A stretch of DNA of 57,507 nt from an uncultured Duodenibacillus sp. (GTDB lineage: Bacteria; Pseudomonadota; Gammaproteobacteria; Burkholderiales; Burkholderiaceae_F): assembly GCA_944390145.1 (NCBI GenBank), contig CALXOY010000026.1, forward strand, positions 1 through 57,507, read 5' to 3'. How positions within the stretch are numbered: position 1 is the stretch's first letter; the number at the start of each line of letters is the position of its first letter. Below, in pieces: positions 19,293 through 56,544 of this stretch. The notes beneath the pieces are model-generated. The model had not been told where the DNA came from, made no database searches, and worked only from the letters and a program-made list of their open reading frames with translations. The translations under genes were made by a program, and so were the position numbers.

Positions 19293-20990
19293 ATGTCCAG
19301 CAACGATCGTGTAGCACTGTCGCGTCGCGGTTTCCTGAAGGGTTCTCTGGCCACGGCCGGCGTAGCGCTTGCCGGCGGTGCAGTCGCCGGCGACATTCCG
19401 GCCGAGTGGGCCAAGCCCAAGTGCTCGAACTGGTCTTGGGAAAAGCCGATGAAGCCCATTGCCGCCGACCAAATCAAAAAGACGATCGACACCGATGTTG
19501 CGGTGATCGGCGCCGGTCTGACGGGCTTTGCGGCGGCATTGTCGGCAGCCGAGGAAGGCGCCAAAGTTGTCGTGGTGGAGAAGACACGCAGCTGGTCGGC
19601 CCGCGGCGGCCACATCACCGCCTTCGGCACGAAGCTGCAAAAGGAGCTCAACGTCAAGGTGGACGCCGCTGAAATCGTGCGCCGCCTCATTGCCTGGGGT
19701 CAGGGCCGCATGGACGAGCGGCTGCTCTGGATGTTTGCCAAAAAGAGCGGCGCCTGCATGGACTGGGCCATCGACATTGCCGCCCGCAACGACGTCAAAG
19801 TGACGCTGTGGGAGGGCTACTACAAGGGACCGACCTACACCGAATTCCCGGTCACGCACTTCTTCTACAACAAGGATGTGTCGCTGGACTACACGTACGG
19901 CAACTCCACGGGCATCGGCAACGTCGTGCTGATGCCGTGCTTTGAAAAGGAACTCAAGGCCAAGGGCGTTCAAATCATGTACCGCACGCCCGCCGTGCAG
20001 CTCATTCGCGAGAAGAACGGCCGCGTGACCGGCCTGATCGTCGGCCGTGCGGGCAACTACACGCGCATCAACGCCAGCAAGGGCGTCATCATCGCCACGG
20101 GCTGCTATGCCTCGAACATGGAGATGCGCAAGTGCTACTCGCCGTACTCCCTGCGCGTCGACGCCCAGATCTACTACCCGACCAAGTCCAACACGGGCGA
20201 CGGCCACATCATGGCCATGCAGATCGGCGGCGCCATGCAGCGCAATCCGGATCATGCAGCGACCGTGCACCTGGAAGCGGGCGCAGCAAGCTACGGCTTC
20301 CTGCACGTCAACGGTCAGGGCAACCGCTTCATGAACGAAGACGTCAACACGCAGTCGAAGTCCTGCTGCAAGGAGCTGCAGGATCACGGTACGGCCTGGT
20401 CGGTGTACGACGCCGAATGGATCAACCAGGTCAAGAAGCAGGTTGACGGCAATCAGGGCGGCGGCCTCTTCTTCGGCCAGATGTGGCAGCCCTGGGGCGC
20501 CGGCTGGAACCAGGAGGTGGAGAAGGCCACGCAGGCCCAGCACATTAAAGACGGCAAGGTCGTCGTCGCCAACACGCTCGATGAGCTCGCCAAGAAGATG
20601 GGCGTGCCCGCCGAAAATCTCAAGAAGACGGTGGCCCGCTACAACGAACTCTGCAAGAAGGGCCGCGACGAGGACTTCGGCAAGCGTCAGGTGCTGCTCA
20701 CCCCGATCGTGAAGCCCCCGTTCTACGCAGGCAAGCTTGCCAGCTCGCTGCTGGCCATGAGCGGCGGCCTGCACACCGATCCCTCGCTGCACGTTCTCGA
20801 TGCACAGCACCGTCCGATTGAAGGTCTGTACGTGGCCGGCGCGGCCGCAGGCGACTACTTCGGCTCGGGCGACTACCCGACGCTGTGCCCGGGCATGAAC
20901 CACGGCCGCTGCCTCACCTTCGGCCGGCTCGCAGGCATTCTGGCCGCGGGCGGCGACATTGACAAGAAGGTCAAGAGCCTGGCCGTCTAA
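19293..20990 (+). CDS. Tat-exported FAD-dependent reductase, fumarate-reductase/flavocytochrome c family
   Basis: Periplasmic flavoprotein of 565 residues. The Tat signal (LSRRGFLKGSLATAGVAL) spans about residues 9-40. The FAD Rossmann motif DVAVIGAGLTGFAAALSAAEEG is at about 67-88. It pairs with the upstream tetrahaem cytochrome. Some substrate-site signatures of true fumarate reductases are missing: TEAVRG and TTRD are not found, HHTMGG is replaced by LAMSGGLHTDP, and the NRLGG segment that holds the substrate-binding Arg is replaced by SGDYPTLCPGMNHGRC. It should therefore reduce a different acceptor, probably another conjugated acid. Related named enzymes are urocanate and methacrylate reductases; I cannot assign the substrate. 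Confidence 0.9.
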   Translation: MSSNDRVALSRRGFLKGSLATAGVALAGGAVAGDIPAEWAKPKCSNWSWEKPMKPIAADQIKKTIDTDVAVIGAGLTGFAAALSAAEEGAKVVVVEKTRSWSARGGHITAFGTKLQKELNVKVDAAEIVRRLIAWGQGRMDERLLWMFAKKSGACMDWAIDIAARNDVKVTLWEGYYKGPTYTEFPVTHFFYNKDVSLDYTYGNSTGIGNVVLMPCFEKELKAKGVQIMYRTPAVQLIREKNGRVTGLIVGRAGNYTRINASKGVIIATGCYASNMEMRKCYSPYSLRVDAQIYYPTKSNTGDGHIMAMQIGGAMQRNPDHAATVHLEAGAASYGFLHVNGQGNRFMNEDVNTQSKSCCKELQDHGTAWSVYDAEWINQVKKQVDGNQGGGLFFGQMWQPWGAGWNQEVEKATQAQHIKDGKVVVANTLDELAKKMGVPAENLKKTVARYNELCKKGRDEDFGKRQVLLTPIVKPPFYAGKLASSLLAMSGGLHTDPSLHVLDAQHRPIEGLYVAGAAAGDYFGSGDYPTLCPGMNHGRCLTFGRLAGILAAGGDIDKKVKSLAV

Positions 20991-21049: not shown

Positions 21050-21091
21050 CAGGGGGAGGCTTTGCCTCATTTCTTGACAGGGAGAAGCATC

Positions 21092-22198
21092 ATGCGATGG
21101 ACCAGAACGGTTTTGGCGGCGGCTTTGGCGGCAGCCTGCGCCGGCGGTGCATGCGCCGGACCGGTGACAGTCTACGGAACAGTGGACACAGGTCTTGAGA
21201 TCTACTACAACGGCGACAGCACCAACGCACGGGTCTCCAGCGGCTTGCGCGAGGGCTCGAACTTCGGCTTCATGGGAAGCGAAGCGCTGGGCAACGGCGC
21301 AGAAGTGTTCTACAAGCTTGAGAGCACGGTGTTTGTGGATACCGGCTCCATGGCAGCCGACAACCGGCTCTTTGACCGGGAGGCTTTGGTCGGCGTGCGT
21401 GGCAGCTACGGCTCAATCTCTCTGGGCCGGCAGTACACGCCACACTTTCTGACGATGGCGATGATTGACCCGGCGGGCTTGACGATGTCAAGCGCAGCCA
21501 ACTACTTCGCCTGCCCGCAGTTTGAGGGCACAATCAACGGCTACCATCAGGATGAGACTACGCGCTTTAGCAACTCCATCAGCTACGACTCGCCTTCGTT
21601 TCACGGTTTGACGGTGCAGCTTTTTGCGGCTCTGGGCGAACAGACCAAAGCGGGATCCAACTCGCCGACGCGCGGCAACGTCTATAACGTGGGCTTTCGC
21701 TATCAGTCCAGCTCGCTCACGGTCATGGCGAGCTACCTCTATCAGAACACCAGCGTCTCGAGCTACGAGGACTGGGACAGCTACTGGGCGCTGGGCGCGG
21801 CCTACGACTTTGGCGTCGTCAAGCCCTCAATTCTGTATGTGCACCGCGAGGGCACCGATGAAGCTGCCGGCTCCACCCCGGGCGCCCGCACAGGCAGTCC
21901 AGACCTGGACATGATCCAACTGGGAGCCTCGGCTCCAGCCGGCGCCGGCAAACTGATTGCAACCGTGGGCTATCTGAAAAACAGCTCGACCGAGGACGGC
22001 GACGCCTGGGCCTGGGGTGTGCGCTATGACTATCCGCTCAGCAAGAAAGTGACGGTCTACAGCGGCCTCACCGGCATCCAGAACGGAGACGACGCGCAGT
22101 ACAGCATCGGAGGCGGCGGCTCGTCCTCGCCTGGCGAAGCCATCGCGTTTGGCGACGATCCGATGGTCTGCTACGCGGGCATGACAATGCACTTTTAG
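21092..22198 (+). CDS. Gram-negative porin (beta-proteobacterial Porin_4 type)
   Basis: Outer-membrane beta-barrel trimer of 368 residues. The signal peptide ends at ACAGGACAG, followed by PVTVYGTVDTGLEIYYNG, the typical first strand of Burkholderia/Bordetella/Neisseria porins. The L3-forming region (FDREALVGVRGSYGSISLGRQ) and the C-terminal strand ending in Phe (CYAGMTMHF), needed for BAM recognition, are intact. Start chosen at MRWTRT, after GGGAGAAG. Its position directly after the reductase module suggests it may admit that module's substrate, but general porin function is equally likely. Confidence 0.93.
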   Translation: MRWTRTVLAAALAAACAGGACAGPVTVYGTVDTGLEIYYNGDSTNARVSSGLREGSNFGFMGSEALGNGAEVFYKLESTVFVDTGSMAADNRLFDREALVGVRGSYGSISLGRQYTPHFLTMAMIDPAGLTMSSAANYFACPQFEGTINGYHQDETTRFSNSISYDSPSFHGLTVQLFAALGEQTKAGSNSPTRGNVYNVGFRYQSSSLTVMASYLYQNTSVSSYEDWDSYWALGAAYDFGVVKPSILYVHREGTDEAAGSTPGARTGSPDLDMIQLGASAPAGAGKLIATVGYLKNSSTEDGDAWAWGVRYDYPLSKKVTVYSGLTGIQNGDDAQYSIGGGGSSSPGEAIAFGDDPMVCYAGMTMHF

Positions 22199-35346: not shown

Positions 35347-36147
35347 ATGGAGCAAGTCTCTGTCGCTTACACGCCGGGCCGCGAAGTGCATATCGGCGGC
35401 GTTGTTCTCGGCCGCGCGCCGGTGAAGATTCTCGCAAGCGTCTGCGCCCAAACGCTCAGGGAAATGGTGCACCAGGGGTGCGCGATCGAGGGGTCGTGCG
35501 CCGACATCCTCGAGTGGCGCGCCGACTACTATGAAGACGCCGCGCCCTGGCAGGAGGCTGTCAATGCCATGCGCGCGTTTGTCACCAAGCCCATCCTCTA
35601 CACCTTCCGCAGCGCGGGCGAAGGCGGCGTGAGCGCGCCGATTTCGGACGCCGAGTGGCGGCAGAAGGTGCTCGAAGCCATCGCAAGCGGCCTGTTTGAC
35701 GCCGTCGATGTGGAATACAACCGCGAGGGCTTCCGCGACGTGCTCGCAGCGGCAAAAGCCGCCCGCGTGCCGGCGATTTTAAGTTGGCACAGCTTTGAGC
35801 CGGTCTCTTTAAAGGACGACGACTCCCCTGTCTGGAAGATCTTTGAGGCGCTCACGCGCGAACCCGCCGATGTGAGCAAATTCGTGATCATGCCCGCAGG
35901 CGAAATTGACGCCGCGCTCATGATGGCCCACATCGCCAAAAGCCGCAAGGAGGCAAAGGAGCCGCTCAAGCCCCTGATTGCCATGAGCATGGGTGAAGCC
36001 GGCTGCTACACGCGCGTGGCGGGCGAACTTTTCGGCTCCTGCGCGACCTTTGCCAGCGTCGCGCAGCGTTCGGCCCCGGGGCAGCTCGATGCGCAGGAAA
36101 CCCGCCGCATGATCGACGAGCTCTCCTTTGTGCCGCTTGAAGTGTAA
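35347..36147 (+). CDS. aroD: Type I 3-dehydroquinate dehydratase, cytoplasmic
   Basis: Dehydrates 3-dehydroquinate to 3-dehydroshikimate through a Schiff base, in the shikimate pathway. The protein has 266 residues and no signal peptide. The catalytic set is complete: Glu56 and Arg58 in LEWRADYY, His148 in SWHSFE, the Schiff-base Lys178 in KFVIMP, Arg223 in MGEAGCYTR and Gln246 in SAPGQ. It is followed after 155 bases by larA. A second, exported member of the same family is encoded at 46501-47433. Confidence 0.96.
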   Translation: MEQVSVAYTPGREVHIGGVVLGRAPVKILASVCAQTLREMVHQGCAIEGSCADILEWRADYYEDAAPWQEAVNAMRAFVTKPILYTFRSAGEGGVSAPISDAEWRQKVLEAIASGLFDAVDVEYNREGFRDVLAAAKAARVPAILSWHSFEPVSLKDDDSPVWKIFEALTREPADVSKFVIMPAGEIDAALMMAHIAKSRKEAKEPLKPLIAMSMGEAGCYTRVAGELFGSCATFASVAQRSAPGQLDAQETRRMIDELSFVPLEV

Positions 36148-44597: not shown

Positions 44598-46406
44598 CTA
44601 CTTCATCGACTTGACTGCGCCTTCAGCGGCAAGCTTGCCGGAAGTCACCGCCCAGCCCATATTGCCTCCGGGAGGCGAGTCGTCGCCCATGGAGCCGCCG
44701 ACAAGTTCACCGGCCGCAAAGAGTCCCTTGATGGGCTTGCCGTTGGTGTCGAGCACGTTAAACGCGTCGTTGGTGACCACGCCGCCCATGGTGGTGGCAA
44801 AGCGGGGCTTCTGTTCGATGATGAAGTACGGACCCTTGTCGAAGATCGCCTTCGTCATGAACTTCGCGGGACGATCAAAGTCCGCGTCCTTGCCGGCCTT
44901 CACGAAGCCGTTGTAGCGGGCGGCCTCCTGCTTGAGCACCGCGCCGTCAATTCCGACCTTGGCAGCGGCCGCTTCGATCGTATCGGCCTTCACAAGCTGC
45001 GGAACCGACTTGCCGTCATTGGCAAGCCACTTCTCGACTTCAGCTTCCGTGATGCCGCCGATGTAAAGGCCCTGCTTGAAGGCGTCAAAGGAGGGCTGAT
45101 CCATCAGGATGTAGAGCGTCGCATCGGGCTGCTTGAGCTCCACCTGCTTGATGGCGTTATTGGAGGCCGTTTCACTGATCACACGCTTGCCTGCGCGCGA
45201 CACCAGGATGCCGGAGCCCTTTTCAAAGGCGTTCTTGTTAGCCCAGATCGTGGACTTGGCAATGCCGGGCGCCACTTCAACGCCATTGGGGTAGATCTTG
45301 CCGTACTCCATCAGCTGGAGCTTGGCGCCGACCGCCTTGGCCATCTTGTGCCCGTCGCCGGTTGAAGACACCGGACCGTAGTAAAGGGACTGCTTGAGCG
45401 AACCGGTGAGCATGTCCTTGGCGTTGCCGAAACCGCCGGTGGTGAGCAGCACCGCCTTGGACTTGATCGTGTAGGTCGTTCCGTCGCTGCCGACGGCCTT
45501 CACGCCCACCACGGCGCCGTCTTCAACAATGAGCTCCTGAGCACGGGTGCCGGTGAAGACCTGGCTGCCGGTCTTCTGCACGAGCGAGTACATGCGCTTC
45601 ATATTGGCCGGAGCGCCGCCCACCCAGCGGATGCAGCGGGGCTTGGAGTACTCGGCCTCATTGGTGAAGCCCGCCTTGGTGTCGATCAAAAGGCCCTGCT
45701 CGAGCAGCCAGTCGATCGTGGGACCGACGTTGTTGACATAAAGATTGAGCTTGCCCTTGTCGTTGAGGTTGTGTCCGTTTTTCAGCAGATCCTGCCGCAT
45801 GATCTCGGGCGAGTCGTCCTTGACGCCAAGCTCCTTTTGCAGCTTCGAGCCCTGGATCACGACCGTGCCGCCGTTGATGGCCGCAGCGCCGCCCACAAAG
45901 GGCATCTTTTCAAGGAGGACCACCTTCTTGCCAAGGCTTGAGGCGCGCAGCGTTGCCACCTGGCCGGCGCCGCCCGCGCCCACAATGGCCAGATCCGTTT
46001 CCACAACCTTTTCAGCCTTCTTGGCAGCCTTCTTGACGGGAACCGCCATCAAAGCCTTCGGGTCGCCGCCCGCCTGGCGTACGCAGTCGGCCACAGCGGT
46101 GAGCACCGCAGCCGAGGACTTGCTTGCGCCCGAAATGGCGGCAACGCCCAGACTCTGATTTTCGACAATCTGGGGCGGCAGCTTTTCCAGAGCCGTCGTG
46201 CCAATCCCTGGCGTTTCATTGTTTTTGCCGACAATGCGCACGGCCTTGATGGCTGAATCGGTGAATTCAACCTCCACCTGGACCGGCCCGCCCATGCCCT
46301 GGGCGGAGGCGCGGTAGGTGCCGGCCTTGTAGCTTGCCGACCAGGCCGAACCAGCCACAGCCATGCCAAGCGCCACCGCGGCCGCGATAAGTGTTTTTTG
46401 CTTCAT
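44598..46406 (-). CDS. Exported FMN/FAD flavoprotein reductase, urocanate-reductase-like architecture
   Basis: A 602-residue protein starting MKQKTLIAAAVALGMAVAGS, a Sec signal; the chosen ATG has AAAGGA upstream. Domain order: signal (1-24), FMN_bind domain (about 26-115) with the covalent-FMN motif ISGASKS at residues 91-97, Lys/Ala linker, then a FAD Rossmann motif (LAIVGAGGAGQVATLRASS, about 139-157) and a fumarate-reductase-type domain. This is the architecture of urocanate reductase UrdA and related periplasmic acceptors. HHTMGG is replaced by FATTMGG and NRLGG by DSPPGGN, so the usual substrate-binding Arg is missing and the substrate must differ from fumarate. It is transcribed with the exported dehydroquinate dehydratase. 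Confidence 0.9.
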   Translation of the reverse strand: MKQKTLIAAAVALGMAVAGSAWSASYKAGTYRASAQGMGGPVQVEVEFTDSAIKAVRIVGKNNETPGIGTTALEKLPPQIVENQSLGVAAISGASKSSAAVLTAVADCVRQAGGDPKALMAVPVKKAAKKAEKVVETDLAIVGAGGAGQVATLRASSLGKKVVLLEKMPFVGGAAAINGGTVVIQGSKLQKELGVKDDSPEIMRQDLLKNGHNLNDKGKLNLYVNNVGPTIDWLLEQGLLIDTKAGFTNEAEYSKPRCIRWVGGAPANMKRMYSLVQKTGSQVFTGTRAQELIVEDGAVVGVKAVGSDGTTYTIKSKAVLLTTGGFGNAKDMLTGSLKQSLYYGPVSSTGDGHKMAKAVGAKLQLMEYGKIYPNGVEVAPGIAKSTIWANKNAFEKGSGILVSRAGKRVISETASNNAIKQVELKQPDATLYILMDQPSFDAFKQGLYIGGITEAEVEKWLANDGKSVPQLVKADTIEAAAAKVGIDGAVLKQEAARYNGFVKAGKDADFDRPAKFMTKAIFDKGPYFIIEQKPRFATTMGGVVTNDAFNVLDTNGKPIKGLFAAGELVGGSMGDDSPPGGNMGWAVTSGKLAAEGAVKSMK

Positions 46407-46500
46407 AAACCGTTTTCCTTTCATGATCGTCTGCAAGGGCTGCGCCGCAAAGCGTTTGCACGCCGTGCGGAGGCAGCCCGCGGGCGTCAGAGCCCAGCCG

Positions 46501-47433
46501 TTACTTTCCCTTCGGATACATTGCGTTGTGCAGAACGTCATGCACAACCTTCAGATCCTTGTAGGGAATCTGGCCCGGGGCCGACGGAATGCCGCCCACC
46601 ATGGCAAACGACAGGTCCGAACCCGTGAATTCGCCGGTGCAGCGCGACAGCACACCCCAGCGGCCCATGGCCATCGTGAGCATCGGACGGTCGCTGTAGT
46701 AGTTGCGCACCTTCCAGGTGGCGCTCATCAGGCGCAGGGCGTCGCCCGTGTTGTGGGCCATCACGGCGAGCTTCAGAATGTCGCTGCCTTCCTTTTCCTG
46801 CATCAGCAGACGGCGGATGATTTCGTCTTCAGAGGGCGTCCAGCCGAATTCATGGTCCGAGAACATCATGACCTTGCCCTTGGCCTTGCCCTTCTTCATG
46901 ATGTGGCGGCACACCTCGATGTCGCGGAACTGCTCGATGTCAAGCCAGTCGACGGAACCGTTGTCAAGCACCGCGTCGTAGAACTGACCGTACCAATCAT
47001 CGGTCACATGACGGCCGCCGCCTTCGGTCTTATCGCGGAAGGTCATCAAAACAGGTTTGTCGCCGGCAAGCTTGTAGGCTTCGCGCGAAAGATCGGCGAA
47101 TTCCTTGCCGTCCATCTCACCGATGTAGTCCGGACGCATTTCGATGGCGTCCAACTCCGGCATCGCGGCATATTCCTTCATGATCTTCAGGAACGCCTCC
47201 GGGGTCTTTGCCGTCGTCGACGCAATGATCTTCGGAGAGCCTTCGCCAATGCGGCAGTTCTTGATCTGGACAACGCGGCGCGCAGGCGTCTTCCAGCCGT
47301 TGCGGCCGTTGCGGGTGTCCACAGGCATCATCTTGGCGTCCGGTGCAAGAACCGTAGAAGCCATCGTCGGCGCCACGAGGCCGGCCACCATGCCGGTCAA
47401 GCCAGTCTTAATTAATCCACGGCGATCCATCAT
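46501..47433 (-). CDS. Exported type I 3-dehydroquinate dehydratase
   Basis: A 310-residue AroD-family protein with an N-terminal export signal (MMDRRGLIKTGLTGMVAGLV, twin-Arg-like) ending about residue 30. All catalytic residues align: Glu98 and Arg100 (IEMRPDYI), His194 (SDHEFGWTP), Schiff-base Lys221 (DILKLAVMA), Arg264 (MGRWGVLSR) and Gln288 (SAPGQIP). Only the compartment is unusual: it should act in the periplasm, where it cannot serve aromatic amino acid synthesis. Start at 47433 has AAGGAG seven bases upstream. It heads a unit with the flavoprotein gene 94 bases downstream. Product 3-dehydroshikimate carries a C=C conjugated to ketone and carboxylate, a plausible substrate for that flavoprotein (inference). 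Confidence 0.9.
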   Translation of the reverse strand: MMDRRGLIKTGLTGMVAGLVAPTMASTVLAPDAKMMPVDTRNGRNGWKTPARRVVQIKNCRIGEGSPKIIASTTAKTPEAFLKIMKEYAAMPELDAIEMRPDYIGEMDGKEFADLSREAYKLAGDKPVLMTFRDKTEGGGRHVTDDWYGQFYDAVLDNGSVDWLDIEQFRDIEVCRHIMKKGKAKGKVMMFSDHEFGWTPSEDEIIRRLLMQEKEGSDILKLAVMAHNTGDALRLMSATWKVRNYYSDRPMLTMAMGRWGVLSRCTGEFTGSDLSFAMVGGIPSAPGQIPYKDLKVVHDVLHNAMYPKGK

Positions 47434-47518
47434 TTTGTATCTCCTTGTCTGCTTTTGACGTATGCAGACATGTGACAATGCTTCGCGGCCCGCGCAGGGA
47501 CCGCTTCATCTGACAGTC

Positions 47519-47524
47519 ATGCTA
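47519..47524 (-). promoter_or_regulatory. Candidate -10 box for the dehydratase-flavoprotein unit
   Basis: TAGCAT on the minus strand (4 of 6 matches to TATAAT). The inverted repeat at 47546-47564 begins 22 bases upstream, overlapping the -35 position. Confidence 0.45.
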
Positions 47525-47545
47525 GGCGGCTCGGGTGGATTGCAC

Positions 47546-47564
47546 CACCTCAAAAAGGAGGTAG
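47546..47564. promoter_or_regulatory. Candidate response-regulator operator, copy 1 (CACCT-N8-AGGTA)
   Basis: CACCTCAAAAAGGAGGTAG lies between the divergent exported dehydratase gene and the sensor kinase gene. It matches copy 2 at 52623-52641 in 15 of 19 positions, and both are inverted repeats with an 8-base spacer. Confidence 0.6.
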
Positions 47565-47600
47565 TCGAAAGCCATCTGCGATTTCTAGAATCGTCTCGTT

Positions 47601-49409
47601 ATGCAAAAGGCCACTTTACTTTGCGCTCTCGTCGCCCTGGCGATTCTGCCGGCGGGGCGGTCGGTGCATGCCTTGGAAAGCGTTCCCGTCGAGCACAGCG
47701 TTTTGATTGGTCTCGTCAACAACAATGAGCCAGGCTTTCGCGCCGAGGTGCTCAACCCCACGCTCGACTACCTCAAAAAGACGCTCCCAAACATCTCGTT
47801 TCGCACGGTCGACATCGCCGCCTACAAGGCCGCCGACGACTTGATGCGCACGCGGCCGGATTTCGTGATCGCGCCAAGCGACGTTTTTGTGACGCTCAGC
47901 TCCTCGATGAGCGTGCATCCGCTTGCCGTGCGCAAAAGCAGCTTTGCCGAGGACGCCAACCGGTCGCTCGGCTCAACCGTCGTCGCCCTGCGCACGCGAA
48001 GCGACATCAACGGCATTGCCGACCTCAAGGGCAAGACCATCAGCGCTTCGCTGCCCGACTCGCTCGGCGGCTGGCTTGCCTTTGCCGGAGAGCTTGCCAA
48101 CCAGGGCTACAACCCGGAAAAGTTCTTCGCGCGCATTGACTTTGACACCTACCAGATTCCGGAAGTGGTCGGATCCGTGCTCTCGGGCCGCAGCGACGCG
48201 GGCGTTTTAAGCACTTGTCAGCTTGAAGTCGCCCAGGAGCGAGGCCTCATTGAGTCGGGCAAGCTCAAGGTGCTCAATCGCCGCAATACGCCTGGCTTTT
48301 CCTGCGCGCACTCCACCGAGCTCTATCCGGATCAGATCTTCGGGTCGGTCAACGAAAATCTTTCGCCCGACACGCTCAAGCAAATCAGCATTGCGCTTTT
48401 GGAGATGCCCGAAAAGCGCAACACCGACGGCGTGACCGAGCGCGACACCACATCCTTTTCCTGGCAGGTCGTCGGGCGCTTTGACGCCATCAGCCGGCTT
48501 TTCAAGACCTTGAGAATCGGTCCCTACGCGTATCTGCGCGACTGGTCGCCCGAGGGCATCGTCAAGCGCTTTTCCACAGAAATCATCGTGGTCTTGAGCC
48601 TGCTTGCGTTTCTTGCCTTAAACGAATTCCGGCTCTACCGGCTCGTGCGCAGCCGCACTTCGCGCCTAAACGCCCTCGTGGAGGAGAAAAACCGCATGCT
48701 CGAGGAGCTGCGCAACCTCAACCGCCGGCTGCACGCCATGGAGCGCAATTCGCTGGTCTCGCAGATGAGCTCCATCATCGCCCATGAGCTCAAGCAGCCG
48801 GTGAGCGCCATCATCAACTACTGCGCCGTCCTGCAGATGGCCATCGAAAGCGGCGCGCGCGACGAAGGCAGAATGGCCGAGGTGACCGACGCCGTCAACC
48901 GCGAGGCGCACCGCATCTCGCAGATCGTCGACCGGGTCCGCTCCTACGTCAAGCGCCCGAACTCCCCGCACAAGCTCTGCCGGATTGCCGAGCTCGTCCG
49001 CCGCGCCGTCGAAAGCTTCTCGCACTACGCCGACAGCACGTCCCGCATCACGGTGAGGATTGAAGACAACGGCGCGCAGATCAAGGCCGAGGCGCTGGAA
49101 ATTGAGATCCTCTTTCTGAATCTCCTCAAAAACGCGGGCCGCGCCGTCAACAAAAACAACGGCAGCATCGAGGTGCGCACGTATGCCGACGAAAAGAACG
49201 TGCATGTCGCTGTCTCCGACACGGGGCCTGCGCTCACGCCCGAGCAGTTCAAGCGCCTCTACGACGTCTGCGATTCCACCTCCGCAGAGGGCCTGGGGCT
49301 GGGGCTGGCCATCGTGCGCAGCATCGCCGACGCGCACTCCGCACACATTCAGATCGAGCAGCTCCAGCCGCGGGGCGTTCGATTCACCGTCACCTTTGAA
49401 AAAATTTGA
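47601..49409 (+). CDS. TtrS-like sensor histidine kinase with PhnD-type periplasmic sensor domain
   Basis: A 602-residue inner-membrane kinase. The signal/first hydrophobic segment is at residues 1-24, a PhnD-like periplasmic binding domain at about 32-300 (IGLVNNNEPGFRAEVLNPTL, VIAPSDVFVTL, GISDLKGK-like segment), and a membrane helix at about 327-345. A coiled coil follows, then a HisKA domain with phosphorylated His395 (IIAHELKQPVSAIINY), N-box LFLNLLKNAGRAV, and G-boxes SDTGPAL and EGLGLGLAIVRS. This layout is that of the tetrathionate sensor TtrS. It is 14 bases from its response regulator. It presumably binds an extracellular acceptor and switches on the adjacent reductase units. Confidence 0.93.
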   Translation: MQKATLLCALVALAILPAGRSVHALESVPVEHSVLIGLVNNNEPGFRAEVLNPTLDYLKKTLPNISFRTVDIAAYKAADDLMRTRPDFVIAPSDVFVTLSSSMSVHPLAVRKSSFAEDANRSLGSTVVALRTRSDINGIADLKGKTISASLPDSLGGWLAFAGELANQGYNPEKFFARIDFDTYQIPEVVGSVLSGRSDAGVLSTCQLEVAQERGLIESGKLKVLNRRNTPGFSCAHSTELYPDQIFGSVNENLSPDTLKQISIALLEMPEKRNTDGVTERDTTSFSWQVVGRFDAISRLFKTLRIGPYAYLRDWSPEGIVKRFSTEIIVVLSLLAFLALNEFRLYRLVRSRTSRLNALVEEKNRMLEELRNLNRRLHAMERNSLVSQMSSIIAHELKQPVSAIINYCAVLQMAIESGARDEGRMAEVTDAVNREAHRISQIVDRVRSYVKRPNSPHKLCRIAELVRRAVESFSHYADSTSRITVRIEDNGAQIKAEALEIEILFLNLLKNAGRAVNKNNGSIEVRTYADEKNVHVAVSDTGPALTPEQFKRLYDVCDSTSAEGLGLGLAIVRSIADAHSAHIQIEQLQPRGVRFTVTFEKI

Positions 49410-49423
49410 GCAAGAGGTGCGAG

Positions 49424-50059
49424 ATGCCCGATACATCCGTTCTCATCCGCATTGTTGATGATGATGCCGAATTCGCCGCCTCCCAGAAAATGCTGATCGA
49501 AACGCTCGGCTGGGAGGTCGCCACCTATTCCGACGCGCTGGAGTTTTTGAAGGAGGATTCGCTCGAGCGCCCAGGCTGCCTCATTCTGGACGTCCGCATG
49601 CCCGTGATGACGGGGCTTGAGCTGCAGCAGGAGCTTGAAAAGCGGGGCTGCCAGCTGCCGATCATTTTTTTGTCAGCGCACGGCGACATTGACATGGCGG
49701 TGCACACCATGCGCCACGGCGCGCGCGACTTTCTGCAAAAGCCCGTGGAGCCGCAAAGGCTGCTCTCCCAGGTCACAAAAGCCGTTGCCACAAGCATCCG
49801 GCAGACCAACGAGTTTGACGAGCTGCAAAAGCTCGTCGACCGCATCGACAAGCTCTCCAACCGCGAGCGTGAAATCGCCAAGCTGGTCTCTGAAGGCTTG
49901 CGCAACAAGGAAATCGCCCGCAAGCTCGGCATCGAAGAGACAACCGTCAAGATGCACCGCGCCAACGCCATGGCAAAACTAGCCGCCAACACCAGCGCCG
50001 AGCTCACGCGGCTTTTCACCATCCTTGAAATCAAAAGCAAGGAAAGGAGGCAGCCATGA
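49424..50059 (+). CDS. FixJ/NarL-type response regulator (TtrR-like)
   Basis: A 211-residue regulator from ATG 49424, with an AAGAGG element upstream. The receiver domain has the acidic pair VDDDAEF, phosphorylatable Asp56 (LILDVRMPVM), switch Ser/Lys (LSAHGD and LQKPVEP). The C-terminal LuxR-type HTH reads LSNREREIAKLVSEGLRNKE and IARKLGIEETTVKMHRAN. The stop overlaps the start of the next reductase gene (ATGA), so kinase, regulator and flavoprotein are one operon. It is the best candidate to bind CACCT-N8-AGGTR. Confidence 0.94.
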   Translation: MPDTSVLIRIVDDDAEFAASQKMLIETLGWEVATYSDALEFLKEDSLERPGCLILDVRMPVMTGLELQQELEKRGCQLPIIFLSAHGDIDMAVHTMRHGARDFLQKPVEPQRLLSQVTKAVATSIRQTNEFDELQKLVDRIDKLSNREREIAKLVSEGLRNKEIARKLGIEETTVKMHRANAMAKLAANTSAELTRLFTILEIKSKERRQP

Positions 50060-51504
50060 GGCGCCGTGCACTTCTTTGTTCGCTGCTTGCAGCAGGCTCC
50101 CCTCTTTGCACACTGCCCGTCCGTGCGGTGCACGCCGCCGGCAGCGATCCCTACGACGTGATTGTCGTCGGCACCGGCGCCGCGGGCCTGTCGGCTGCGG
50201 TCTCAGCGGCCGAAAACGGCGCGCAGCGCGTCCTGGTGCTCGAAAAGGAGCCCACCCTGGGCGGCCACACCATGGTCTCCACGGGCTACGTGAGTGCGCT
50301 CAACCGCGAGAGGCTGACGCCTGAAGAGTACAAAAAGGCCGAGGCGGCCATGCTCGAAGGCATGGAAAAAGCCTCCGCCGGCCGGGGCAGCAGCGAGCTT
50401 TACCGCAAGGTCGTCTACGAATCGGCCGACATCATCGAGTGGCTCTCCTCGATGGGCCTCAAATGGAGCCCGAACGTCTATCAGACGCTTGCGGGCCTCA
50501 CGCCCTTAAGCTACATCTCAAGCGCCGTGCGCGCGGGCTACGACTACATCACCACGCTTAACAAACGCGCGCGGCTCCTAGGCGTCAAAGTGCTCTTTTC
50601 CACGCGCGCCACGGAGATTCTTTTAAACAACCGGAAGGAAATTGCAGGGGTCATCGCGCAAACCGAAACGGGCCGCGTGCAGTTTGCCTGCCGTTCGCTC
50701 GTGCTTGCCACCGGCGGCTACGGAGGCAATGTCGCCATGCGAAGCCGCTACGTGCCGTGGCTTGATGCAAGCTACCCCACCACCGCCAACCCCTACTTTG
50801 CCGGCACGGACTGCGCCACGGGCGACGGCATCGCCATGGGGGAGAAAATCGGCGCCGCGCTCATCAACATGGACTGCATCATGGTGATTCCGTTTTGGGG
50901 CGGGCGGCTCACGGACTACGTCGGCGCTGACATTTACGTGGACGCGCAGGGACGGCGCTTTGTCAATGAGGGCGCCTCCTGGAGCGAGATCAGCGCCGCC
51001 ATCCGGCGCCTGCCGCAGGAGCAGTGCTGGGTGATCACAGACTCGCAGTCGGTGCAGGGCGCAAGCCGCAGCACCAAGATCATGAAGGGCATTGTGAAGG
51101 CTGCCAACACCGTGGCGGAGATGGCCGTCGGCATGCAGGTGAGGACTTCCGTGCTGCAGGAGACGCTTGACCGCTACAACCGCTTTGTGCGTGCGGGCAA
51201 GGACGAGGATTTCGGGAAAAACATGTTCACCCAGGAGATCAACCAGCCGCCCTACTTCTACGGCAAGGAGCGTCTTTACGTGCACTACTGCTGCGGCGGC
51301 TTGAAGATTGACAGTCAGGCGCGTGTACTCGATACCGAGGGCCGTCCGATACCCGGCCTTTTTGCCGCCGGTGAAACGACCGGGGGCGTGCACGGCAAGG
51401 ACCGCCTCGGAGGGTGTTCTCTCACGGACTGCTTTGTGTTCGGACGCCAGGCAGGAAAATCGGGCGCCTTCCACGCGGAAAACGCCCGGTTGCAAAACTT
51501 CTAG
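50056..51504 (+). CDS. Exported FAD-dependent fumarate-reductase-like flavoprotein
   Basis: A 482-residue flavoprotein without FMN_bind or haem domain. It starts MRRRALLCSLLAAGSPL, a signal that is Arg-rich but lacks the full Tat consensus, and continues DVIVVGTGAAGLSAAVSAAE (FAD Rossmann, about residues 35-54). The C-terminal FAD segment GETTGGVHGKDRLGG keeps the Arg that binds the substrate carboxylate in fumarate reductases. However, HPT, TEAVRG and TTRD blocks are absent and HHTMGG is VHYCCGG, so the catalytic pocket is changed. It is translationally coupled to the response regulator. Likely a periplasmic reductase or oxidoreductase for the ligand of the neighbouring sensor; electron partner unknown. 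Confidence 0.87.
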   Translation: MRRRALLCSLLAAGSPLCTLPVRAVHAAGSDPYDVIVVGTGAAGLSAAVSAAENGAQRVLVLEKEPTLGGHTMVSTGYVSALNRERLTPEEYKKAEAAMLEGMEKASAGRGSSELYRKVVYESADIIEWLSSMGLKWSPNVYQTLAGLTPLSYISSAVRAGYDYITTLNKRARLLGVKVLFSTRATEILLNNRKEIAGVIAQTETGRVQFACRSLVLATGGYGGNVAMRSRYVPWLDASYPTTANPYFAGTDCATGDGIAMGEKIGAALINMDCIMVIPFWGGRLTDYVGADIYVDAQGRRFVNEGASWSEISAAIRRLPQEQCWVITDSQSVQGASRSTKIMKGIVKAANTVAEMAVGMQVRTSVLQETLDRYNRFVRAGKDEDFGKNMFTQEINQPPYFYGKERLYVHYCCGGLKIDSQARVLDTEGRPIPGLFAAGETTGGVHGKDRLGGCSLTDCFVFGRQAGKSGAFHAENARLQNF

Positions 51505-51537
51505 CAAGCCGCCCGCAAGCGGCTTCTCAACGGCCGG

Positions 51538-52503
51538 TTAGAGCTTGTTGAGCACGCGGATGGCGTGTTCGTAGGAAAGCTTCAGAACCGTTTCCGGTGC
51601 AAGACCCGGCACCGGCACTTCAACGCCGATGGCGCTCGTCTTGGGCATGTGCTGCAGGAAGTCGATGAGCGGCAGTTCTCCGTCGCCCGGCAGCAGGCGA
51701 CCCAGACGCGCTTCATTGACGAGCCCTTCAAATCCCTTGGGCGTGCCGGAGGTGCTGTCGAGCTTTGCCTTGCCGGCGCGAACCCGTTCGATCAGCTTGC
51801 GGTCGATCGGCGGGTTCTTCACGGCGTCGCACAGATGGATGTCGCCCAGGCAGCGAGCCGGAATCTTGTCGAGGTCGGCAGCCGTGCCGCCAGAACGATA
51901 CAGATGCAGGGAGTCGACGGCGATCGTGCCGTTGTCGCGGTCGGCCATCTTCACGAGCTCATAGGCCTGCTCGAGCGTGCCGATGGTGCGCCATGCCATG
52001 AATTCCAGGTCGATGCGGAAGCCGTAGGGCTTGGCCATGTCGCACATCTTGGCAAACATGGCGGCAAACTTGGGCTTGTCGGGCGCGTCGCCGCAGATGC
52101 AAAGCGACTTGATGCCGAGTTCGCCGCAGGTTTCAAAGATGGGCGCAAACTGCGTCGGATCGGTGTCGCTGTTCAATGCAAAGCCGTCGACGCCGTTCAC
52201 GCGCATGCCAAGGTCGGCAAGCAGTCTCTTGAAGTCGCGCAGCTTCTTGCTGCCGGCCTTGTAGTAGTAGGCCACGGAACCCTTGGAAATTTCATGAATG
52301 CGGATGCCGATGGCGTCGTAGCCTGCCTTGTGCGCTTCAATCGCGAGCTTTTCGGGCGGCAGATCCAGGGCGGTCAGATGAATAGCAGAAAGAGACCATT
52401 TGTCCTGACGCGGCATGGCGATGGCCTGCGTGGCGGCCGATCCCAACACGGGAGCCGCAGCAGCGGCGCACAAGCCCTTGAATAGATCTCTGCGTTGCAT
52501 CAT
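51538..52503 (-). CDS. Exported TIM-barrel sugar-isomerase/AP-endonuclease-2-like enzyme
   Basis: A 321-residue protein with a twin-Arg-type signal (MMQRRDLFKGLCAAAAAPVL) ending near residue 30. The rest is an AP_endonuc_2 (xylose-isomerase-like) TIM barrel. Candidate metal ligands are Glu in IDLEFMAW, Asp in VDSLHLYRSGG, His in GDIHLCDA and Glu in IGVEVPVPG, a layout shared by sugar phosphate isomerases, IolE/IolH and 3-dehydroshikimate dehydratases (QuiC/AsbF). Export of such an enzyme is unusual. The neighbouring exported dehydroquinate dehydratase makes 3-dehydroshikimate, so dehydroshikimate or a related cyclitol acid is a candidate substrate; this is inference. Confidence 0.85.
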   Translation of the reverse strand: MMQRRDLFKGLCAAAAAPVLGSAATQAIAMPRQDKWSLSAIHLTALDLPPEKLAIEAHKAGYDAIGIRIHEISKGSVAYYYKAGSKKLRDFKRLLADLGMRVNGVDGFALNSDTDPTQFAPIFETCGELGIKSLCICGDAPDKPKFAAMFAKMCDMAKPYGFRIDLEFMAWRTIGTLEQAYELVKMADRDNGTIAVDSLHLYRSGGTAADLDKIPARCLGDIHLCDAVKNPPIDRKLIERVRAGKAKLDSTSGTPKGFEGLVNEARLGRLLPGDGELPLIDFLQHMPKTSAIGVEVPVPGLAPETVLKLSYEHAIRVLNKL

Positions 52504-52622: not shown

Positions 52623-52641
52623 CACCTCCCAAAGTAGGTGG
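52623..52641. promoter_or_regulatory. Candidate response-regulator operator, copy 2 (CACCT-N8-AGGTG)
   Basis: CACCTCCCAAAGTAGGTGG, a perfect inverted repeat with an 8-base spacer, centred about 129 bases before the TIM-barrel start codon. Copy 1 is centred about 122 bases before the exported dehydratase start. Confidence 0.6.
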
Positions 52642-53302: not shown

Positions 53303-53875
53303 TCAAAGCACCGTGCGGTGCTGCCACAGGTGCAAAAGGGCAAAGGCGGCAAAGCCCCAGCCGAGCACTCCGTGGCTTGATTTGTTGAAGGCTAGCGAGG
53401 CGACGCTGGCAGCGCCCAGTCCGAGCATGATGCGGTTTTGCGCCATGCGGCGGGCACGCTTGACGTTTTTAACATCGGGCACGATCACGCGCGCGGCGGC
53501 ATCCATTGCCGAGCGGGCAAGGTTGACCGCAGGCTCTGCCGCCTTGCGGACCTCCCCGCAGATGCATGCAGCAGGCGCCTGCACGGCCCCCTCCGCAGCC
53601 TTCTTTTCTTCGTCTTCAGTGTCAGCACTGTACGCGAGAAAAGCAAGCCACGTCTGCATGTGTTCCTTGAGCGCTTCAACAGTCAACACCTCGGGGTCCC
53701 AGGTGAGAAGCGCGCTTCCAACCGACGGGTTGATCTCAAGGCCTTCGACGCCTTCAACAGCGGTCACCAGGGATTTAATGGCCTCGATGTCATCGCCTCC
53801 AATGCCTGCCAGGGCCGGATGCCGGATGCGGGCACGGCCGTTGATGAGGCTTCTCACATAGTTTTCAAGCTCCAT
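53303..53875 (-). CDS. HMA-like domain membrane protein accompanying the P-type ATPase
   Basis: A 190-residue protein. The N-terminal ~75 residues resemble a ferredoxin-fold heavy-metal-associated domain without the CxxC motif (RIRHPALAGIGG, VEGLEINPSVGSALLTWDP). The C-terminal part has one or two hydrophobic segments ending ALLHLWQHRTVL, with His residues near the membrane. The fold element GVxGLxxNPxxGS is repeated in the N-terminus of the ATPase (GVEGVTVNPRTGSVVVF). It overlaps the ATPase stop by 11 bases, so the two are coupled. Probably an accessory metal-binding subunit. Confidence 0.72.
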   Translation of the reverse strand: MELENYVRSLINGRARIRHPALAGIGGDDIEAIKSLVTAVEGVEGLEINPSVGSALLTWDPEVLTVEALKEHMQTWLAFLAYSADTEDEEKKAAEGAVQAPAACICGEVRKAAEPAVNLARSAMDAAARVIVPDVKNVKRARRMAQNRIMLGLGAASVASLAFNKSSHGVLGWGFAAFALLHLWQHRTVL

Positions 53876-56207
53876 GGCTCACTTCCTTTGCTAATGCCGG
53901 GGCTTCGAGAAGTCCCGCGTAGTGACGGCCCTGCGGATGCTGCAGCAGCACGTCCCGCACCTTTTCCAAGACGTCGTGCCACTCGATTTTTTCGTCGCCC
54001 GCAGGCCGCATGGCGTTCAGGCACACCCCGATCGTCGTGAGGTTGTGCAGCACCGCCCCCATGGCAGGCTGCAGCAGTCCGGTGACGCCGCCCGCCATAA
54101 AGAGCGTGTTCAATCCCACCGAAGTGCCGAAATTGACTTTGACGCGGCGCATCACGGCGCGTCCGAGATCAATGGCCCGCGGCAGGTCTTCGAGCGTATT
54201 GCGGGTGAGCACGACGTCGGCCACCTCCTGCGCAATGGCGCTGCCCTCGCGCAAGGTGACGCCGACGTCGGCGGCAGAAAGCGCCGGACTGTCGTTGATG
54301 CCGTCGCCCACCATGAGCACCTTGCAGCCCTGCGCCTTGAGTTCCTGCACAAAGGCGGCCTTGTCGGTGGGAAGCACCTGGGCGCGGTATTCATCCAAAC
54401 CGAGCCTTGCGGCAACGGCAGCCGCCGTGCGCTCGTCGTCGCCCGTGAGCATCACCATGCGGCGGATGCCGCGCTCCCTGAGTTCCGCAATCACGCGTAC
54501 GGACTCCTCCCGGACCGGATCAACGATCCCCAAAAGCCCGATCAGGCGCCCGGCGCAGGCAATGTAGAGAATGGACTTTCCCTCCCGGGCAAGGCGCTCG
54601 ACGTGCGGCGCCGCGGCCGTGCAGTCCACGTGTTCGTCGTCCTCGACAAAATGGCGCGAGCCGATGATCACCTTGTCGGAATCCACGCTCGAGCAGATGC
54701 CGTGAGCCACCACGTACTGCACCTGGGAGTCGTGCTTTTCCACAAAATGATCGAGCCCCTGCTCGCAGGCCGCCTGCACCACGGCGCGTGAGACTGGATG
54801 CGGGAAGTGCTCCTCGAGGCAGGCGGCAAGGCTCAGCAGCTCGTCTTCGCTTCTGGCCGGATCAAGCGACACGACGTCTGAGAGGCGAGGCGCGGCAGCG
54901 GTAAGCGTGCCGGTCTTGTCAAAGACCACCGTGTCGACCTCGGCAAGCGACTCGAGATAGCGCCCGCCTTTAATCAGCGTGCCGTTTTTCGTGCCGGTCT
55001 TCATGCCCGCAAGAATGGCTAGCGGCGTGGCTAGCCGCAGCGCGCAGGAGTAGTCGACCATGAGCACGCCCGCCGTGCGGTTGAGGTTGCGCGTCAAAAG
55101 GAAGACGAGGCCCGCGAGCGCAAAGTTGTAGGGCACGATGGCGTCGGCAAGATGCTCGGCCTTGCCTTGAATCCCCGCCTTGCTCTTTTCGCTCGTTTCG
55201 ATGAAGTCGATGATTTTGGATAGCCGCGTCTCGCCTGCGATCTTGCTCGGGCGCACGTCGATTTCGCCGTCTTCGACCACGGTGCCCGCGTAGACCTGGC
55301 CGCCCGCGGTGCGGTGCACGGGAAGCGGCTCGCCCGTCATGGTCGCCTGATTGACATCGGCTTCGCCCGCAGCAACCACGCCGTCCACCGGAATGGTGCT
55401 GCCGGCACGCACAACGATCACGTCGCCGGGAGTGATTTCCACAAGCGGCAGTTCAATCACGGTGTCGCCGCGTCTCACCCAAACACGGTCGACCTTGAGC
55501 GCCAGCTGGTCGGCAAGGCTCTCGAGCGACTTCTTGCGGGTGTAGTTTTCAAGCATCTCGCCCAAACCAAGGAGCACTGTCACCAGGCCCGCCGTCTTGA
55601 AGTCGCGCCGCAGAAGCGAAATGCCGATCGCGGCGGCATCAAGCACCTCCACCGTGAACTTTCCCCTGCCAAGCTGCCGGAATCCCTCCCAAATGAAGGG
55701 AACGGCCCCCAAAACCGCATTGACGGCGTTCACCATCAAAGGCAGGAAGGGCCTGACGACCACCCAGCGCACCAGGGGAGAAAAATCAAGCTCCGGGGCC
55801 GCGCCCGACGCATGCCGTCCCGACCCGAAAAGGTGGAAAAGCGGCATCGAGCGCGCGGCGCGAACCAGTGCCTGCAGCACGGGCGCAGACGCATTGTCCC
55901 CGCACGCTCTTGCGTCGGGGTTTTCAGCCTGCGTGCGCTTGATGTCTTCGACAAAGCGCCTGCGCGCGTCGCGCATCATGGGCGGCAGGGCGGCAAGCGA
56001 CTCGAGATAGCCGGCAACGGGCGCGAGCGCCGCGGCGCTCGCGTAAAAGACGACCACCGAGCCCGTGCGGGGGTTGACCGTGACGCCCTCCACGCCCGCA
56101 ATGGCCGAAATGGCGTCGGCAATGCTCTCGGCGCTGGCCGTGGTCATCGTGCCGCGCGTGCGCCAGCGCTGTCGATTGCCGACTTGATGAACGAGAGTGA
56201 ACTGCAT
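53865..56207 (-). CDS. P1B-type heavy-metal-translocating ATPase with non-CPx metal motif
   Basis: Inner-membrane metal exporter of 780 residues from MQFTLVHQVGNRQRW. Visible parts: N-terminal HMA_2-like domain without CxxC (about 1-60); actuator TGEPLP; phosphorylation site VVFDKTGTLT; nucleotide-binding site EEHFPHPVSRAVV (HP motif); hinge MVGDGINDSPAL. The membrane metal-binding motif, CPC/CPH/SPC in most P1B pumps, is DYSCALRLATP: Cys kept but Pro replaced by Ala. This resembles the CtpC-like group in which Mn or Zn transport is reported. The upstream frame (47 codons) has no similarity. Metal specificity is open. Confidence 0.9.
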   Translation of the reverse strand: MQFTLVHQVGNRQRWRTRGTMTTASAESIADAISAIAGVEGVTVNPRTGSVVVFYASAAALAPVAGYLESLAALPPMMRDARRRFVEDIKRTQAENPDARACGDNASAPVLQALVRAARSMPLFHLFGSGRHASGAAPELDFSPLVRWVVVRPFLPLMVNAVNAVLGAVPFIWEGFRQLGRGKFTVEVLDAAAIGISLLRRDFKTAGLVTVLLGLGEMLENYTRKKSLESLADQLALKVDRVWVRRGDTVIELPLVEITPGDVIVVRAGSTIPVDGVVAAGEADVNQATMTGEPLPVHRTAGGQVYAGTVVEDGEIDVRPSKIAGETRLSKIIDFIETSEKSKAGIQGKAEHLADAIVPYNFALAGLVFLLTRNLNRTAGVLMVDYSCALRLATPLAILAGMKTGTKNGTLIKGGRYLESLAEVDTVVFDKTGTLTAAAPRLSDVVSLDPARSEDELLSLAACLEEHFPHPVSRAVVQAACEQGLDHFVEKHDSQVQYVVAHGICSSVDSDKVIIGSRHFVEDDEHVDCTAAAPHVERLAREGKSILYIACAGRLIGLLGIVDPVREESVRVIAELRERGIRRMVMLTGDDERTAAAVAARLGLDEYRAQVLPTDKAAFVQELKAQGCKVLMVGDGINDSPALSAADVGVTLREGSAIAQEVADVVLTRNTLEDLPRAIDLGRAVMRRVKVNFGTSVGLNTLFMAGGVTGLLQPAMGAVLHNLTTIGVCLNAMRPAGDEKIEWHDVLEKVRDVLLQHPQGRHYAGLLEAPALAKEVSHGA

Positions 56208-56244
56208 GACAAATCGTCCGCAAAAAAACGAAGCGTCAAACGCC

Positions 56245-56544
56245 TTAGGCGGGGGCCTTCTCAACAGCGGGTTCGGCCACAGCCTGCGCCGCCTCCTGAG
56301 CCTCCTGCGCGGCTTTCTTTTTCTGGTTCTTGAGCTGCGCCTCGGCAACGACGTCCTCGAGATCCTCCTTGACGCCTTCGGCCACGGCCATCACCTTGTC
56401 GCGCAGGGCGATGCCGCCCGCAACGAGGTCGGTTGCCAGGGGCTTGACGCCCTGCACGCGGCCGCGGGAGACCGCCATGGCGCCGAGCGCGCCGAGCGCA
56501 ACGCCGCCCAGGAAGATCAAGCCGTACTTCGTGTAGTTGTTCAT
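56245..56544 (-). CDS. Small anchored protein, DUF1490-like, first gene of the P-type ATPase operon
   Basis: A 99-residue protein from MNNYTKYGLIFLGGVALGAL, with AAGAAGG nine bases upstream. One N-terminal membrane helix is followed by a long amphipathic, Lys/Glu/Ala-rich helix (KVMAVAEGVKEDLEDVVAEA and following). Similar one-helix proteins precede metal ATPases in other bacteria (DUF1490 next to mycobacterial Ctp pumps). It lies 37 bases before the ATPase start. Likely an accessory or chaperone of the pump. Confidence 0.7.
   Translation of the reverse strand: MNNYTKYGLIFLGGVALGALGAMAVSRGRVQGVKPLATDLVAGGIALRDKVMAVAEGVKEDLEDVVAEAQLKNQKKKAAQEAQEAAQAVAEPAVEKAPA

Follow-up and report, generated by a model that had tools for sequence, protein, structure and literature searches.

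We analysed a 57,507-nt stretch of contig CALXOY010000026.1 from an uncultured Duodenibacillus sp. (GCA_944390145.1; host genome 2.09 Mb, G000 in our collection), hereafter the window, in which six genes set a putative exported dehydroquinate dehydratase beside two exported flavoproteins, a two-component system and a TIM barrel. On the minus strand, FLA (44598–46406; start ATG at 46404–46406) encodes a 602-aa flavoprotein with FMN_bind and FAD_binding_2 domains and a Sec-type leader, and ARD (46501–47433) encodes a predicted QuiB-like type I 3-dehydroquinate dehydratase (DHquinase_I) with a twin-arginine leader. A divergent promoter region recognized from the gene layout (47434–47600) separates ARD from HK (47601–49409, plus strand), a sensor histidine kinase with Phosphonate-bd, HisKA and HATPase_c domains. 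Downstream on the same strand lie RR (49424–50059), a FixJ/TtrR-type regulator (Response_reg and GerE) whose open reading frame opens with TTG at 49406 and whose ATG at 49424 matches the homologue in locus L039, and FLB (50056–51504), an exported FAD_binding_2 flavoprotein without an FMN domain that overlaps RR by 4 bp. TIM (51538–52503, minus strand) encodes an IolI/QuiC-like AP_endonuc_2 TIM barrel with a twin-arginine leader. Domain calls came from Pfam and NCBIfam profile searches, supplemented for FLA by structure and family alignments, and leader peptides, both Sec and twin-arginine, were judged by eye. An earlier, sequence-only reading had named all six genes (two flavoproteins, exported AroD, kinase, regulator and TIM), and each was confirmed where that reading had placed it; its assignment of the DNA to Sutterellaceae agrees with those relatives in the genome collection that bear names, which are Duodenibacillus, Sutterella, Parasutterella and Turicimonas.

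The exported dehydratase and its neighbourhood

ARD is very likely an exported dehydroquinate dehydratase, judging from its sequence. The protein scored above the TIGR01093 cut-off (151.3 against 139.3 bits), and positions of catalytic type were intact in alignments (E98, the E/D of TEGG/TDGG, H194, K221, R264 and Q288); these were matched to Glu46, Glu86, His143, Lys170, Arg213 and Gln236 in E. coli/Salmonella numbering, which we take to be the type I catalytic residues. H194 (the catalytic His) and K221 (the Schiff-base Lys) were invariant in 12 aligned rows, and a leader-bearing dehydratase with intact catalytic residues is a well-supported prediction. Biosynthesis is probably not the task of the exported copy, since the window also holds a second, leaderless aroD (35347–36147). 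In a 52-row AroD tree, which used 26 of 71 non-Sutterellaceae loci (L018, L029 and L036 were dropped as duplicates or near-duplicates, and L019 was also dropped), the 11 exported Sutterellaceae AroD formed a single clade (Shimodaira–Hasegawa-like approximate likelihood ratio test (SH-aLRT) 100). This clade sits in a 32-row group (SH-aLRT 98) of leader-bearing QuiB-like AroD from Acinetobacter, Paraburkholderia, Burkholderia, Erwinia, Rahnella, Pantoea, Rouxiella, Stenotrophomonas and Pseudomonas; L031, L051 and L052, Sutterellaceae rows of a different type, fall in the group as well. Seven cytoplasmic AroD rows of the window's genus stood separate (SH-aLRT 99). The export signal that the sequence-only reading had assigned to AroD is present as the twin-arginine leader, and by its grouping the protein is a QuiB-type dehydratase.

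Searching 67 family genomes with exported AroD and reading 15–17.5 kb around the matches recovered 11 loci in 10 genomes for one exported lineage, AroD1, and two further loci for a second, divergent lineage, AroD2, in P. excrementihominis (L164, 13938–14795) and S. massiliensis (L177, 8472–9338), with both AroD2 proteins likewise above the TIGR01093 cut-off. Conservation of the neighbourhood had been set beforehand as a refutation test, and the neighbourhood recurred: HK-RR-FLB was present in 12 of the 13 exported-AroD loci, the AroD2 lineage included, FLA lay in the same locus in 11 of 13, and TIM was adjacent in four, so that the pairing of flavoproteins with a dehydratase is a repeated one. 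The exceptions were L045, where exported AroD is the sole cluster gene on a 16-kb contig and the FLA of that genome lies on another contig (L158), and L177, with no FLA within the stretch read; in L046, HK is split over two open reading frames. The arrangement was repeated in four genera (g1, g15, g16 and g17), which is more than chance would explain, and we regard the conserved gene unit predicted from these comparisons as well supported. TatC was found in 10 of 10 carrier genomes. Of 316 loci confirmed in the named collection, the best 80 include 71 from outside Sutterellaceae, and none of these 71, some of them on short contigs, showed an FLA or FLB neighbour at 1e-8; a viral-contig scan found no relative.

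The place of TIM in the cluster, also proposed earlier, stood in part. TIM is linked by position, adjoining the cluster in the window, L039, L040 and L042 (where tim begins 11 bases beyond fla, in the same orientation), and by a shared dyad in two of five cases, but it is adjacent in only 4 of 13 loci and unlinked in G049 (L170). Close TIM (at least 57%) was found in 5 of 10 carriers, with relatives at 29–32% only in G004, G052, G053 and G062 and none in G048; all five TIM genomes fall within one six-locus clade of the AroD and FLA trees, whose sixth member, G048, is without TIM at 1e-15. The sole NCBIfam match of TIM was QuiC (NF042435, a model of a fusion of TIM with 4-hydroxyphenylpyruvate dioxygenase (HPPD)), partial and under the cut-off at 29.7 of 1200 bits. 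Foldseek put IolI (1i60) at the top of its list and 5hmq, a TIM/HPPD fusion, in third place for a model with a mean predicted local distance difference test score of 61.3, which makes the fold matches no more than indicative. E167, D197, H200 and E295 were invariant in seven rows and presumably have metal-ligand-like roles; relatives of the IolI and QuiC type act on polyhydroxylated cyclohexanones. Leaderless TIM barrels 27–29% identical to that of the window also lie beside AroD in Firmicutes (L084:8941–11895 and L128:802–3327), in L128 together with genes that by eye resemble aroE, aroA and aroC.

Other genes border the cluster. A P-type (E1–E2) ATPase gene adjoins it in the window (53865–56348, minus strand), and in the closest relative an arylsulfotransferase gene (PF05935; L039:10955–12772) lies downstream of fla, followed by a gene that looks DsbA-like by eye; a similar-looking open reading frame is present in L046.

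Flavoproteins, sensor cassette and predicted operator

The two flavoproteins are both present, as had been claimed, but a pair of this kind is by itself unremarkable, as 17 of 28 FAD_binding_2 matches in the 2.09-Mb genome were near full-profile. A further FAD_binding_2 flavoprotein is encoded in the window at 19293–20990, with a porin gene directly after it (21062–22198). FLA carries a flavinylation-type SGAS motif together with YPNGxE, PRFATTMGG and GDDSPPGGN. In a solved-structure alignment with Shewanella Fcc3, counted by hand, FLA has Tyr for His365, Asn for Arg402, Ala for His504 and Ser for Arg544. Across 25 FLA rows, position 365 was Tyr in 25, position 504 Ala in 24 and position 544 Ser in 25, while position 402 was Asn in 18 (including all of the AroD-linked clades I and II), Gly in six and Leu in one. 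Judged by these residues FLA is not a fumarate/urocanate-type reductase, and because all four are lost FLA is, on sequence grounds, a separate subfamily; that it nevertheless acts as a reductase is somewhat probable. ApbE was found in 12 of 12 genomes (the 10 carriers plus G056 and G060), the G004 copy being partial with a stop. A search of 399 genomes of the order at E 1e-130, with at most three candidates scored per genome, matched FLA in seven genomes, all of them Sutterellaceae.

The FLA tree follows the dehydratase in part. Clade I comprises six rows, all adjacent to AroD1; the nine rows of clade II include four adjacent to AroD1, one linked to AroD2 and four without an adjacent AroD, two of the latter in G004 and G053, which do possess exported AroD. 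None of the nine clade III rows is AroD-linked, and one distant row stands apart. A simpler sensor–reductase unit is seen in L165, L167, L169 and L171, where HK-RR comes directly after clade III FLA and neither AroD nor FLB intervenes. Broken or fragmentary FLA paralogues, with stops or split frames, occur in L173:286–1182, L174 and L175:110–1771, and one of these belongs to G000 itself (contig C10).

FLB scored above the flavo_cyto_c cut-off (317.7 against 285.45 bits), and homologues were found in 30 of 67 family genomes at 1e-75. We read 54 FLB rows in 53 loci, covering part of these matches together with loci read earlier: HK accompanied FLB in all 53 loci, RR in 49 and AroD in 12. HK-RR-FLB is a generic, repeated paralogous cassette, and we therefore rejected FLB as an AroD-specific partner. 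FLB keeps the equivalents of His504 and Arg544 in 54 of 54 rows, and position 402 is variable. The signature PFWGGR/PYWGGR plus Trp402 was found in all 12 AroD-linked rows and in 8 of the other 42 (Fisher p 3.7e-7, uncorrected for kinship), so the FLB pocket goes with AroD and the motif is not exclusive to it; exclusivity was rejected on those eight rows, seven of which form part of one separate clade. A second cassette type (L238, L243, L250 and L265) combines HK-RR-FLB with an exported TIM-like protein (~28% identical to the window TIM) and a different FAD_binding_2 protein, with no AroD. The description of the regulators as TtrSR-like survives for layout only, a Phosphonate-bd kinase with a FixJ-type regulator: HK scored 168.1 of 750 bits against TtrS (NF040750) and RR 169.8 of 290 against TtrR (NF040749), and membership of TtrSR was rejected with both under the NCBIfam cut-offs.

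Comparison of the ARD/HK and TIM upstream regions revealed a dyad, YACCTM-N6-KAGGTR. The window holds just two copies, both on the plus strand and together the sole exact sites in the 2.09-Mb genome: a predicted operator between ARD and HK (47546–47563; CACCTC-N6-GAGGTA, or TACCTC-N6-GAGGTG read towards ARD) and a candidate upstream of TIM (52623–52640; CACCTC-N6-TAGGTG), which fits this pattern and not the stricter TACnnn-N6-nnnGTA. The closest relative, G007, has exactly two sites in the same two places. Among the eight genomes counted (G000, G001, G003, G005, G006, G007, G008 and G061), G061 had three sites (one at its aroD), G005 three (one at an HK-RR-FLB cassette), G008 two (the one read was not at a related cluster) and G001, G003 and G006 none; a reversed-pattern control gave two sites in G007 and one in G006. 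A generalized dyad, TACnnn-N6-nnnGTA, of which one end may deviate, was also scored in the 260 bp that precede each exported aroD. The closest match was perfect in 5 of 13 loci (L041, L043, L046, L047 and L048), had at most one mismatch in eight (with the window, L039 and L177) and at most two in all 13 (with L040, L042, L044, L045 and L164), compared with 19, 76 and 533 of 5,000 random 260-mers from the fetched loci. Seven perfect copies occurred in 605,107 bases of loci, some overlapping and all picked around these genes: five before exported aroD, one before tim (L039) and one before a fla paralogue (L157). The recurrent dyad before exported aroD is a well-supported sequence feature that would function as an operator bound by RR. 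It is likely that ard-fla and hk-rr-flb make up one regulon, and rather less surely that tim belongs to it.

A proposed dehydrate-then-reduce module and its rivals

We tentatively propose that the cluster encodes a regulated periplasmic 'dehydrate, then reduce' respiratory module with a shikimate-family acceptor. HK would sense a periplasmic small molecule, and RR would act at TACnnn-N6-nnnGTA dyads to switch on ard-fla and hk-rr-flb, and probably tim. Using Schiff-base chemistry, ARD would dehydrate 3-dehydroquinate (or a closely similar 3-oxo-cyclohexane acid) to 3-dehydroshikimate, the ring C=C of which would be conjugated with a ketone and a carboxylate and which would therefore electronically resemble fumarate. 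FLA, flavinylated by ApbE, would reduce a periplasmic C=C with electrons that the chain supplies on its quinol side, its ApbE-attached FMN offering a natural point of electron entry (ApbE was found in 10 of 10 carriers). FLB may be a second flavoprotein with a pocket tuned to the acid of the AroD pathway, and TIM, where present, could carry out a further dehydration or isomerization of a hydroxylated cyclohexanone. A dehydratase followed by a C=C reductase would amount to malate–fumarate–succinate logic moved to the periplasm. In this scheme we infer the substrate identity, the redox direction, the electron donor, the sensed ligand, the role of the dyad as operator and the membership of TIM in the regulon; that the acid itself regulates the module, as the sequence-only reading had it, is a guess.

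Several observations weigh against this proposal. Shikimate-pathway acids, the electron acceptors proposed by the earlier reading, stay putative in that role. FLA is without proton-donor and carboxylate-binding residues, having lost all four Fcc3 equivalents and with them the fumarate/urocanate-type assignment, and FLB has Trp in place of the proton-donor Arg at position 402 in 12 of 12 AroD-linked rows. Both cassette and FLA also occur without AroD, as in 42 of 54 FLB rows and in the clade II FLA of G056 and G060, genomes in which no exported AroD was recognized; in L199:534–6482 (G005, of the same genus and likewise with no exported AroD recognized), HK-RR-FLB with the same dyad (TACCTC-N6-TAGGTA) faces a different exported flavoprotein. 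The covariation of FLB with AroD comes down to three pairs that are independent in the phylogeny, each either neutral or pointing the same way (sign test p 0.25). For the operator, the dyad rule was generalized after some loci had been seen, and the loci are related; the dyad shared within the window alone is weak, with 116 of 1,940 random region pairs scoring equally; and tim is preceded by a dyad in two of five cases (L039 and, in looser form, the window), with none upstream of tim in L040, L042 or L170. No periplasmic pyrroloquinoline quinone (PQQ)-dependent source of 3-dehydroquinate, such as a PQQ quinate dehydrogenase, was found in the 10 carriers.

An unlikely alternative is scavenging of the Acinetobacter type, in which exported AroD would turn 3-dehydroquinate into 3-dehydroshikimate and exported TIM would turn that into protocatechuate in the periplasm, the flavoproteins belonging elsewhere. 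The grouping of AroD with exported QuiB, the partial QuiC match of TIM, its Foldseek ranking and the periplasmic setting of the Acinetobacter pathway (PMC4213383) are consistent with it. However, close TIM is found in just half of the carriers, FLA and HK-RR-FLB accompany nearly every exported AroD, no full-length PQQ dehydrogenase was seen in the carriers, and none of the 10 matched Acinetobacter QuiC in a search that had no positive control. It is improbable that the flavoproteins are oxidative, with FLB and/or FLA desaturating or oxidizing a hydroaromatic acid (quinate or dihydroshikimate), AroD removing the product, and the pathway feeding electrons to the chain instead of providing an acceptor. 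Both flavoproteins do lack the Arg402 proton donor of reductases, their matches under cut-off in NCBIfam include 4-oxocyclohexanecarboxylate dehydrogenases and tricarballylate dehydrogenase and, as no PQQ quinate dehydrogenase was found, dehydroquinate must come from something else. Yet alcohol oxidation is, to our knowledge, not an established reaction of PF00890 enzymes, and the characterized FMN_bind fusions named in PMC8238504 are reductases.

It is quite improbable that the other half of a plant ester, such as caffeate from chlorogenate, is the real acceptor via FLA while AroD disposes of the quinate-derived half. FLA-type genes are indeed found without AroD, and gut bacteria are known to possess flavoproteins that reduce hydroxycinnamates, but AroD requires dehydroquinate, not quinate, and no esterase was spotted by eye among the starts of the loci's open reading frames, where no family search for esterases was made. 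Finally, it is very improbable that AroD and the flavoprotein cassette are mere neighbours with no common pathway, even with HK-RR-FLB mostly occurring without AroD and L045 carrying exported AroD alone, because two separate exported lineages are both linked to HK-RR-FLB and the dyad, like the FLB pocket motif, accompanies AroD.

Plant food is rich in quinate and shikimate, both of which gut bacteria reduce and aromatize; we know of no genes for the reductive branch of this metabolism. Respiratory reductases of the gut microbiota were reportedly the subject of Little et al. (2024), and Parasutterella that of Ju et al. (2019). If correct, the dehydrate-then-reduce proposal would supply candidate genes in human-associated species such as Parasutterella excrementihominis and Sutterella wadsworthensis. 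Its principle would be that the acceptor respired by a flavoprotein is first made by a dehydratase. The boldest form of this idea is doubtful: gut Sutterellaceae would make their own periplasmic acceptor, with a non-reducible plant hydroaromatic acid dehydrated by exported QuiB-type (sometimes TIM-barrel) enzymes to an unsaturated keto-acid that FMN/FAD flavoproteins respire. In that form it would amount to a kind of anaerobic respiration, on acids of the quinate/shikimate family, that has not been reported before, and would offer a candidate for the step with which the gut begins to reduce quinate and shikimate towards cyclohexanecarboxylates. The predicted operator would make the regulon directly accessible, and the repetition of the HK-RR-FLB cassette (54 FLB rows, 53 loci) suggests how Sutterellaceae could add further acceptors.

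Comparison with known systems

An exported dehydroquinate dehydratase as such is not new, as QuiB of Acinetobacter baylyi works in the periplasm between QuiA and QuiC (PMC4213383); in our set, L123 shows the gene order of the A. baylyi qui genes. The Sutterellaceae enzyme shares with QuiB its export, its type I family and one tree group (SH-aLRT 98), whereas its neighbours here are FMN/FAD flavoproteins, a two-component system and, in some loci, an exported TIM barrel, and its leader is of the twin-arginine type. The plain Acinetobacter pathway was rejected for want of QuiA: the 10 carriers contained no full-length PQQ dehydrogenase, with only short PF01011 matches in frames of ~380–395 aa (BamB-sized) or none. 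QuiC, which in A. baylyi is of the beta-helix type, was not found in the search without a positive control.

FLA resembles UrdA and FMN_bind-type fumarate reductases (PMC7921117, PMC8238504) in its FMN_bind and FAD_binding_2 domains, its leader, its SGA[ST] motif and the presence of ApbE in the genome; FMN_bind-fused PF00890 reductases include known respiratory enzymes (PMC8238504). Unlike UrdA, in which Arg411, Arg560 and His520 have roles in proton transfer and carboxylate binding (PMC7921117), FLA is without equivalents of these residues, and FLB lacks both the FMN domain and the proton-donor Arg. The regulators share with TtrSR a Phosphonate-bd sensor kinase and a FixJ-type regulator but score far under both NCBIfam cut-offs, and no tetrathionate reductase is among the cluster's six genes. 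TIM shares its fold and metal-ligand-like residues with IolI/QuiC-type barrels (1i60 and 5hmq), and differs in bearing a leader and in being ~20–25% identical. The parts of the cluster are of known kinds; their combination, a QuiB-type enzyme without QuiA together with FMN/FAD flavoproteins and a Phosphonate-bd sensor, was not found in the open-licence literature searched, which was covered in part.

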